Shown here piece by piece: positions 25,922 to 27,704 of a DNA stretch of 43,648 bases (its first letter is position 1; every line of letters starts with the position of its first letter). A program made the position numbers and the translations under genes. The stretch comes from Oscillospiraceae bacterium (GTDB lineage Bacteria; Bacillota; Clostridia; UMGS1810): positions 1 through 43,648 of the forward strand of contig SVJH01000018.1 in the NCBI GenBank assembly GCA_015069095.1, given 5' to 3'. Below the pieces are notes generated by a model. It made no database searches. It was given only the letters and a program-made list of their open reading frames with translations, and had not been told where the DNA came from.

Positions 25922-27310
25922 TTATTTTATAATCTGACACATAAATACATTTGCTATATTAAAAAATATAAGAACAGAACAAGTATCAAGTATAGTTGTA
26001 ATAATCGGTGCCGCCATAATTGCAGGGTCAAGTTTGCATTTTTTTGCAACAATAGGAAGAATACATCCTATAACTTTTGCAAGTACGACAACAAGTACAA
26101 GTGTAATTCCAAGAACAAGTGCAAGTATATATGCATTTATATCCTGAGATTTGTTATACATAATGATAATTCTTATTGCATTAACAACTGAAAGCAAAAA
26201 ACCTACTACAAGAGCAATTCTAAATTCTTTAAAAATTGCTTTTAGTAAATCTTTTGATTTAATCTCATCAAGAGCAAGACCACGAATTACCATTGTAGAA
26301 GATTGCGAACCGCAGTTTCCGCCTGTACCCATAAGCATTGGTATAAATGATACCAAAATAGGAACAGTCTTAAATGCAGTTTCATATTCCTGAATAATCA
26401 TTCCGGTTACTGTTGCTGAAAGCATAAGGAATAAAAGCCATAAAATTCTGTTTTTTGAATGTGTCCAGACACTTGTTTTAAAGTATGATTCAGTTGTTGG
26501 ATTGATAGCCGCCATTTTTGAAAAGTCTTCTGTACTTTCTTCAATAATGACTTCCATAGCATCGTCAAATGTAACAATACCTACAAGTCTGTCTTCATTA
26601 TCAACAACAGGTATTGCCATAAAATCGTACTTATCAAATTTTATTGCTATTGCTTCTTTATCTTCGAGTGTATTTGCAAAAATAACATTAGTTTCCATAA
26701 TATCTGATATTTTTGCACTGCTGTCTGCCAAAAGAAGCGTTCTTACAGTAACTAACCCTTCAAGTTTCCTGTTTTTATCAACAACATAGCAGGTATAAAT
26801 AGTTTCTTTATCATACCCTGTTTTTCTTATTCTTTCAAACGCGTCGGCAACTGTCATATCTTTTTTCAAATCGACAAACTCAATTGTCATAACACTTCCG
26901 ACACTATCTTTTGGATAGTTTAATATTTCGTTTATTGCCTTTCTTGCATCAGGCTGAGAGTTTTTTAGTATTCTTTTTACCACGTTTGCAGGCATCTCTT
27001 CAATAATGTCAACTGTATCATCGACAAAAAGTTCATCAAGGACTTCTTTAAGTTCTCTGTCAGTAAAAGATTTTATAAGATGCTCTTGTGTATCGGAATC
27101 CATATCGACAAAAACTTCCGATGCAAATTCTTTTGGAAGTATTCTGAAAATATATGCAAGATGTGCCATTTCAATCTGGCTTAAAATACTTGCCACATCC
27201 GTTGGATTTAACTGCGATAAAATTTCTTTAATTTTTGTAAACTGTCTTTTTGAAAGAAGAAGTTCTACTTCTTGAAGTAGTTCTTCTTCATTTAAAATAT
27301 TTTCTTCCAT
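25922..27310 (-). CDS. mgtE: Magnesium transporter MgtE
   Basis: A 462-aa Mg2+ channel of the cell membrane, gated by internal Mg2+. The N-terminal domain (about 1-130) has the helical repeat around LNPTDVASIL; two CBS domains follow (about 140-255, YPKDSVGSVMT, VVDNEDRLVGIVTFDDAMEVI); five membrane helices (about 285-460) include PILVSFIPMLMGTGGNCGSQSSTMVIRGLAL split between helices, the pore region. It is preceded by an M-box riboswitch, a terminator and a leader ORF, and its start codon lies inside a hairpin. First structural gene of a five-gene operon ending with trxA. Confidence 0.96.
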   Translation of the reverse strand: MEENILNEEELLQEVELLLSKRQFTKIKEILSQLNPTDVASILSQIEMAHLAYIFRILPKEFASEVFVDMDSDTQEHLIKSFTDRELKEVLDELFVDDTVDIIEEMPANVVKRILKNSQPDARKAINEILNYPKDSVGSVMTIEFVDLKKDMTVADAFERIRKTGYDKETIYTCYVVDKNRKLEGLVTVRTLLLADSSAKISDIMETNVIFANTLEDKEAIAIKFDKYDFMAIPVVDNEDRLVGIVTFDDAMEVIIEESTEDFSKMAAINPTTESYFKTSVWTHSKNRILWLLFLMLSATVTGMIIQEYETAFKTVPILVSFIPMLMGTGGNCGSQSSTMVIRGLALDEIKSKDLLKAIFKEFRIALVVGFLLSVVNAIRIIIMYNKSQDINAYILALVLGITLVLVVVLAKVIGCILPIVAKKCKLDPAIMAAPIITTILDTCSVLIFFNIANVFMCQIIK

Positions 27311-27350
27311 GTCTTATCCTCCAATTCGCTGTTATATTATGATAAGACAT
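27309..27350 (-). promoter_or_regulatory. mgtE: Hairpin sequestering the mgtE start codon
   Basis: On the minus strand ATGTCTTATC (27341-27350) is perfectly complementary to GATAAGACAT (27309-27318). The latter includes the A and T of the mgtE ATG and the last base of its GGAGG (27318-27322), and the rest of the ribosome site lies in the loop. Forming this 10-bp stem should block mgtE translation. Confidence 0.7.
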
Positions 27351-27362
27351 TAAGCCTAAAAA

Positions 27363-27452
27363 TTATACATTAAAACGGCCGCACATTATGCAGCTTAAAT
27401 GAATGCATAAATTAGGAGGTTTAATGTCATTGCCGGTACTGTCTGCGACCAT
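27363..27452 (-). CDS. Putative mgtE leader peptide, 29 aa
   Basis: A short ORF between the M-box terminator and mgtE, beginning MVADSTGNDIKPPN and carrying three cysteines in its second half. It has a good AAAGGGTG site 8 bases before ATG and ends 52 bp before mgtE. The Lys-Pro-Pro codons are AAA-CCT-CCT; this CCTCCTAATT run (27410-27419) can pair with AATTGGAGG at the mgtE ribosome site with one bulge. Early acidic residues and two prolines recall the Mg2+-sensing MgtL leader of enterobacteria, but there is no sequence homology. Whether it is translated is unknown. Confidence 0.5.
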   Translation of the reverse strand: MVADSTGNDIKPPNLCIHLSCIMCGRFNV

Positions 27453-27473
27453 TTTATTCACCCTTTCTTCTTT

Positions 27474-27500
27474 AAAAAAAGCCTACCGCTTTTGGTAGGC
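27474..27500 (-). terminator. M-box-controlled intrinsic terminator
   Basis: On the minus strand GCCTACC-loop-GGTAGGC (27481-27500) is followed by seven T (27474-27480). The 5' arm CCTACC is complementary to GGTAGG in the aptamer flank (27660-27665), giving a plausible antiterminator. Confidence 0.85.
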
Positions 27501-27512
27501 TTAATAAGCAAT

Positions 27513-27675
27513 AAACTTACTTTTTTAACCGTTACAAGCTTTAGTATCACAGGGCATGAAATTGCATTAGATTATACCTTGATTCGATATGACCTGCTAA
27601 CCTTCTCATAGTGTCTCCACTATTTTGCGGCAGCAACCCGTATCCCTGTGGTAACCTTACCTACCGATTAAGTTT
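27513..27675 (-). promoter_or_regulatory. M-box (ykoK leader) magnesium riboswitch
   Basis: On the minus strand, the aptamer is closed by AAACTTA/TAAGTTT (27669-27675 with 27513-27519). It contains the conserved GGTAGGTAAGG, ATACGGGTTGCTGCC, an ATAGTGGAGACACTAT hairpin and GTGATACTAAAGC, matching the M-box consensus in order. High Mg2+ should stabilise the aptamer, allow the downstream terminator to form and shut off the mgtE operon. Confidence 0.9.
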
Positions 27676-27704
27676 ATTCTATCACATTTTGCAAGGCGTG
27701 TCAA
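27676..27704 (-). promoter_or_regulatory. Promoter of the M-box/mgtE transcript
   Basis: On the minus strand: TTGACA (27699-27704), a 17-bp spacer and TAGAAT (27676-27681). It overlaps the last codons of spmB, and transcription would begin at the base of the aptamer. Confidence 0.85.

Follow-up and report, generated by a model that had tools for sequence, protein, structure and literature searches.

A short leader ORF with alternative RNA pairings probably gates mgtE behind an M-box riboswitch, and related leaders precede mgtE across Clostridia

The gene for the Mg2+ importer MgtE and its control region lie on the minus strand of a 43,648-nucleotide stretch of Oscillospiraceae DNA (SVJH01000018.1), which as a whole is called the window here. 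Two genes with Gate domains (Pfam) stand upstream of an array that consists of a promoter-like site, an M-box riboswitch, a leader ORF, and mgtE itself. Read in the direction of transcription, the parts of this array are:

27676-27704, minus strand: promoter-like site of the sigma-70 type (TTGACA-17-TAGAAT), scoring 11/12 in a consensus scan in which such sites were no more numerous than expected by chance; directly 5' of the M-box
27521-27675, minus strand: M-box Mg2+ riboswitch aptamer (RF00380; 101.2 bits, E 1.7e-21, gathering score 44)
27474-27502, minus strand: intrinsic terminator of the M-box, a 9-bp stem (27502-27479) and a U run
27452 (ATG) to 27363 (TAA), minus strand: leader ORF of 29 codons, MVADSTGNDIKPPNLCIHLSCIMCGRFNV, with homologous ORFs in the relatives G003 and G008 and in a class-wide family of leader ORFs
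27445-27456, minus strand: segment 0, the leader-ORF start UAAAAUGGUCGC, 5' arm of stem P1 (partner 27371-27382)
27403-27428, minus strand: segment E within the leader ORF, GACAUUAAACCUCCUAAUUUAUGCAU, forming 21 pairs with D and predicted to free the mgtE start
27371-27382, minus strand: segment L, the 3' part of the leader ORF, GCGGCCGUUUUA, 3' arm of P1 (partner 27445-27456)
27346-27370, minus strand: segment D, AUGUAUAAUUUUUAGGCUUAAUGUC, which overlaps the anti-start arm in its 3' part
27341-27350, minus strand: anti-start arm of the start-codon stem, AUGUCUUAUC, a perfect 10 bp with 27309-27318
27318-27322, minus strand: Shine-Dalgarno (SD) sequence of mgtE, GGAGG
27309-27318, minus strand: start arm GAUAAGACAU over the SD spacer and AUG of mgtE, a perfect 10 bp with 27341-27350
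25922-27310, minus strand: mgtE, 462 aa, with MgtE_N, two CBS, and MgtE domains (PF03448, PF00571, PF01769)

The first-pass annotation had placed the leader behind an M-box and its terminator, and the Rfam match and the terminator stem with its U run confirm this context. The M-box is the sole copy in the source genome and ends 5' of the leader ORF. Over the leader-ORF part, no Rfam family scored above its gathering score in the window and about 60 relatives; the only Rfam match other than an M-box was a TPP riboswitch on the opposite strand, upstream of the mgtE leader of L117 (405-296, minus strand) and off the element. The 29-codon ORF itself is present as first read, with a modest SD (AAAGGGTG), and its peptide gave no match in Pfam. 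This peptide is atypical, as it begins MVADSTGND rather than MD and has its first Pro at codon 12. The ORF also contains a short, weak terminator-like GC hairpin followed by CGTTTT (27394-27378, minus strand); G003 and G008 seem to have comparable hairpins with T-rich tails where their ORFs end.

Three pairings define the region between the M-box terminator and mgtE. The start-codon stem is a perfect 10-bp helix of ATGTCTTATC (27350-27341) with GATAAGACAT (27318-27309, minus strand), just as the first-pass annotation described it. It covers the AT of the mgtE ATG (27310-27308) and the SD spacer, leaves the SD GGAG in a 22-nt loop, and has a predicted energy of -10.3 kcal/mol; none of 1000 dinucleotide shuffles reached 10 bp against the mgtE start region. 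The alternative pairing noted at the outset, GACATTAA (27428-27421) with TTAATGTC (27353-27346), is likewise present, as 8 bp plus CC/GG. Taken alone it is weak, with 25 of 1000 shuffles reaching 8 bp and GACATTAA occurring five times in the window against three expected. It is the tip of an imperfect 21-pair helix, E:D (27428-27403 with 27370-27346), of -14.7 kcal/mol and a z-score of -4.0 relative to shuffled sequence. The third pairing, which had been overlooked, is P1, a 12-bp stem between the start of the leader ORF (27456-27445) and its 3' part (27382-27371). With D:S denoting the pairing of the anti-start region with the ribosome site of mgtE, the window z-scores against shuffled controls are -3.3 for P1, -4.0 for leader:D, and -2.3 for D:S. 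A second copy of the pairing segment, GTTTTAATGT (27376-27367), had been proposed as a competitor; it does exist in the sequence, but neither of the two nearest relatives, G003 and G008, has one, and we dropped it. CCTCC in the leader was also considered as an anti-SD for GGAGG and rejected, because CCCCC in G008 breaks that pairing.

The family of the source genome is represented by 16 genomes, which are also the entire order in our genome set. Two of them have an M-box and nine a full mgtE, and each of those nine mgtE genes is preceded by a short SD-led ORF. Three of these leaders are of the window type, beginning MVADSTGNDIKPPNLC.. here, MNAGSSGDIKPPNLC.. in G003 (an Oscillospiraceae MAG, SVJU01000001.1), and MNASGSGDIKPPNLC.. 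in G008 (JALEIO010000149.1). All three keep an E:D helix of about 20 bp despite base differences, including a compensated exchange from GACAUUAA:UUAAUGUC here to GACAUAAAAC:GUUUUAUGUC in G003, with G-U in G008; in each of them, the mgtE start region is a second partner of D. As a plain MAFFT alignment of these leaders misaligns segment D, the comparison relied on energies, shuffles, and partner swaps. When leaders were swapped among 61, the native leader:D pairing fell in the top 1-2%. In the corresponding test of D:S among the three nearest leaders, swapped D segments paired with the window start region more strongly than its own D. G008 carries the window-type switch with no M-box, indicating that the leader switch is independent of the riboswitch. 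These relatives retain the leader ORF, the start-codon stem, and the alternative pairing, with compensatory change. This was the conservation that the first-pass annotation had named as the test of its proposal, and it supports the architecture proposed there, a leader-ORF-coupled translational attenuation stacked on the M-box.

For the window type, only the three leaders named above could be compared. A DNA search with the leader alone recovered one true homolog, G003; a match in G029 (L003) lies inside a helicase-like gene and was set aside as a chance match. The peptide pattern IKPPN.C, searched in 391 genomes, occurred in the three window-type leaders and in three unrelated matches only. 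The sequence GACATWAAACCYCCTAATTTATGC (27428-27403) is nearly identical in nucleotides across two genera although it is coding (leaders of G000, the window, and of G003 and G008), which is consistent with a double constraint on peptide and RNA. The other six family members have leaders beginning MDAGG(S/N).., in which E (AGGAGGTA), D (TACTTCCTACCTAAA), and the SD (TTTAGGAGG) could be read by eye; their leader:D z-scores are mostly weak.

A survey of the class covered the upstream regions of 140 further mgtE genes and 79 named loci, a leader being defined as an SD-led ORF of 12-50 codons starting with Met-Asp. Such ORFs occur in 79 of 149 class mgtE upstream regions, compared with a mean of 1.2 and a maximum of 4 in shuffles; as a control on real sequence, 457 kb of other sequence from the relatives held 6 and the window none. 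Besides the named set, carriers fall in 30 numbered families. Two flavors can be recognized: MDxxP, mostly MDxxPLP (36 distinct leaders), and MDxG(S/G)S (most of 65), with the leader of L037 reading MDAGSSIGIESGGR. The most conserved residues class-wide are those at positions 2-7; D2 and P5, which served in part to select the set, carry no weight as evidence here. Synonymous variation at two residues outside the selection, P7 (CCT 13, CCC 7, CCG 2, CCA 1) and G4 (GGA 28, GGC 10, GGT 8), supports translation of these codons. Ten leaders follow an M-box: those of the window (G000) and G003, together with L084, L090, L091, L095, L097, L106, L130, and L131, the last eight all being MDxxP. Most other leaders that were checked have the ORF without an M-box.

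Some further features of these loci may be recorded here. In leaders of several families (L079, L085, L056, L069, and L081), a hairpin covers the mgtE SD and runs straight into 7-8 U ahead of the start codon, an arrangement in which a single hairpin could serve both to mask the SD and to end transcription. Tandem duplicates of mgtE are seen in G118, G065, and G031 (f17) and in G316 and G350 (f78); in f78 an MDAGSS leader ORF precedes the first copy only, and the f17 copies have no such leader. One in-frame stop lies inside or at the edge of the mgtE match in L019 (G007; TAA) and L072 (G035; TAG), which could be a start-site or sequencing matter.

With the pairing regions fixed in advance, 101 distinct leaders in two groups were compared with shuffled controls. 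Three pairings recur, namely that of the leader start with the leader 3' part, that of the leader with the anti-start segment, and that of the anti-start segment with the mgtE ribosome site. The most constant of the three, P1, has mean z-scores of -3.35 (66 leaders) and -2.69 in the two groups (Fisher 9e-53 and 7e-22); the values are -1.84 and -2.41 for leader:D (2e-23 and 2e-21) and -1.43 and -0.87 for D:S (2e-17 and 1.5e-5), all of these treating related leaders as independent, with controls that handle kinship only in part. L015-L018, L020, L081, and L178 show little leader:D signal. In an alignment of 23 MDxxP leaders, in which kinship is likewise controlled for only in part, pairing reaches 84.9% for P1 and D:S together and 83.6% for leader:D, and both bases have changed in 12 pairs of the former and in 7 of the latter; neither covariation score was reached in any of 500 shuffles, and slid-partner controls on the same alignment gave about 33-51% paired.

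These data bear on two readings in which the act of translating the leader plays no regulatory part. One holds that the ORF encodes a small functional protein that sits beside mgtE through operon structure, with the pairings incidental. Cys residues do recur in the C-terminal half of several leaders, and the lack of a Pfam match would allow such a role, yet the C-terminal halves otherwise diverge and vary in length, three helices covary, and the ORF adjoins mgtE in all flavors, which makes this reading scarcely credible. The other is a purely RNA switch, in which P1 and E:D would combine into a pseudoknot that senses Mg2+ or another ligand while the ORF stays passive. P1 and E:D use separate bases in the window, where L ends at 27371 and D starts at 27370, so that the two could coexist in this way, and the constancy of P1 also fits such a switch. 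However, the SD, the start codon, and a Met-Asp-x-(Gly/Pro) peptide are conserved amid synonymous variation, and the +1 and +2 frames are open in just 29 and 9 of the 101 leaders (frame 0 is open in all, by selection of the set). Moreover, P1 and leader:D draw on common bases in the MDxxP leaders, where only one of the two can form at a time. We consider an RNA-only switch unlikely.

The effect of ribosome position was predicted by blocking a ribosome footprint codon by codon, refolding the RNA, and computing the fraction in which the mgtE site is open. With codons 1 to about 5 occupied, this predicted fraction rises in L091 (0.32 to 0.67), L092, L093, and L014 (0.06 to 0.51), and the site closes again with the ribosome on later codons. 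In L013 the open fraction is lowest (about 0.26) at codons 8-18 and about 0.4-0.5 when the leader is free or occupied at codons 1-3. Several MDxxP leaders (L092, L100, and L128) also open with the ribosome on the last codons, and in these complete translation might also provide coupling. The window itself shows no switch in equilibrium folding, its open fraction staying at 0.35-0.40 at every ribosome position; D:S with part of E:D is favored over full E:D by about 5 kcal/mol. When the window transcript is folded as it grows, every length short of the start region contains E:D; once that region appears, the start stem displaces the inner 8 bp of the helix. A real switch at this locus would therefore have to be kinetic. 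The sign of the earlier proposal, in which a translated leader leaves mgtE shut, fits the footprint folding of the relatives, but the equilibrium folding of the window is unchanged by the ribosome.

An SD-led ORF upstream, a stem over the main start, and an exclusive pairing that involves the leader, three of the features by which attenuators of the ermC/cat kind are recognized, are all found here. In the ermC scheme, where the ribosome sits on the leader ORF determines which of the alternative stems form, and one of these sequesters the SD and start codon of the following gene. P1, leader:D, and D:S share strands and thereby follow the same four-segment logic, the MDxxP leaders showing the 1:2, 2:3, 3:4 pattern. 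Our preferred reading, which we regard as probable, is that the short leader ORF gates mgtE as an ermC-like translational attenuator placed behind the M-box and working like the enterobacterial MgtL. D:S would shut mgtE and leader:D would open it, the partner of D in the leader being E at this locus and L in the MDxxP relatives. A ribosome held at or lost in the first codons would leave P1 open and the D-pairing segment free to capture D, allowing mgtE to be translated; one moving through the body of the leader would cover that segment, and D would close the mgtE start. In the window, the nascent RNA would form the opening helix E:D first, with the closing stem displacing its inner 8 bp once the start region is made. 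The leader would act as a second check on transcripts that have passed the M-box. We infer the Mg2+-sensing step by analogy with MgtL: early acidic, Gly/Ser, or Pro codons would be poorly translated at low Mg2+, and the importer would be made when needed.

The first-pass annotation had instead assigned the control of mgtE expression to ribosome stalling at the Lys-Pro-Pro codons. IKPPNLC is indeed conserved in the three nearest leaders, with KPP kept at the nucleotide level too, and other leaders have Pro near codons 11-13. Yet the KPP codons are also half of the E:D helix, and a ribosome stalled on them would cover E and let D close the start. That would be repression, the opposite of what an importer required at low Mg2+ calls for. 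The strongest class-wide conservation also lies elsewhere, at codons 2-7, and we find the stall highly doubtful. It is also quite improbable that the switch works by transcription attenuation, with the leader ORF governing an intrinsic or Rho-dependent terminator instead of translation. Leaders in f10, f18, f5, and part of f51 (e.g., L079 and L085) do have an SD hairpin followed by 7-8 U, which suggests that the hairpin there is also a terminator, and the weak hairpin in the window ORF (27394-27378) points the same way. In most relatives, however, no U run follows the hairpin, which stops at the start codon, and the start stem of the window has a 22-nt loop and likewise lacks a U run.

Gating of mgtE translation by a leader ORF invites comparison with several known systems. 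Compared with ermC, no antibiotic is involved here, the presumed stall or drop-off occurs at the first codons, and the window type uses an early-leader segment for its opening helix. The closest functional likeness is to MgtL, where translation of early acidic and alternating Pro codons breaks down at low Mg2+ (PMC11282234, PMC6460261, PMC11552253); the MgtL of Salmonella mgtA has Pro at positions 3, 5, 7, and 9 (PMC6460261), and that of E. coli mgtA an EPDP drop-off motif (PMC11282234). Both systems place a short leader ORF before an Mg2+ importer gene, with two exclusive RNA folds and, by prediction in the clostridial case, efficient leader translation shutting the gene, and the clostridial MDxxPLP leaders have Pro at positions 5 and 7, some also at 3. 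An acidic residue together with a Pro within the first ~9 codons, the mark of MgtL, is found in the 36 MDxxP leaders and is lacking in the window peptide, which has no acidic-Pro start. Moreover, the transporter here is MgtE rather than a P-type ATPase, the phylum is another, and control is predicted to act at the ribosome site of mgtE, not at a Rho terminator. As the window peptide and gene differ in these ways, membership in the MgtL class is not claimed.

Translation of corL, the leader of enterobacterial corA, inhibits an Mg2+ channel gene in an Mg2+-dependent manner (PMC11552253). Our case is likewise a leader ORF whose translation is predicted to shut an Mg2+ transport gene, but corL is Rho-linked and proteobacterial, with a different peptide and transporter. 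The M-box of Mycobacterium tuberculosis (pe20 leader) is likewise followed by short ORFs, with SD, anti-SD, and anti-anti-SD pairing (PMC12810186). There, the M-box gates translation of the small ORF and Rho termination; here, it has its own intrinsic terminator and is followed by a separate leader-ORF switch, most clostridial copies of which have no M-box. Finally, the ‘mgtE motif’ of Thioalkalivibrio (SRC-65-1) is a structured RNA that, like ours, covers the SD and AUG of mgtE; it is a riboswitch candidate restricted to a single proteobacterial genus and, in the parts of its description available to us, presented without a leader ORF (PMC11109978).

Taken together, a tiny ORF and alternative foldings probably let the ribosome help to decide on synthesis of the importer at this locus. 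Related switches precede mgtE across many families of gut Clostridia and are apparently undescribed; a literature search, with subscription journals largely outside it, found no clostridial mgtE leader peptide. More tentatively, and as a possibility that we rate somewhat short of an even chance, the mgtE leader peptides of Clostridia (MDxxPLP and MDxG(S/G)S) sense Mg2+ through failed early translation, having evolved independently of MgtL and become wired to translation of the importer. They would often be the only visible regulator and would sometimes stand behind an M-box, with Mg2+ read twice, by RNA and by ribosome. To our knowledge, ribosome-based Mg2+ sensing is known mainly from the enterobacterial mgtA, mgtCBR, and corA. 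If the proposal is true, gut Clostridia would widely use a leader-peptide switch on a transporter unrelated to these, which would mean that this solution arose more than once. It would also add natural early-codon motifs for studying how low Mg2+ destabilizes translation and would provide a natural case of a riboswitch and a translated leader reading the same ion in series. The question why some lineages have retained both layers, and others the leader ORF alone, also becomes testable.
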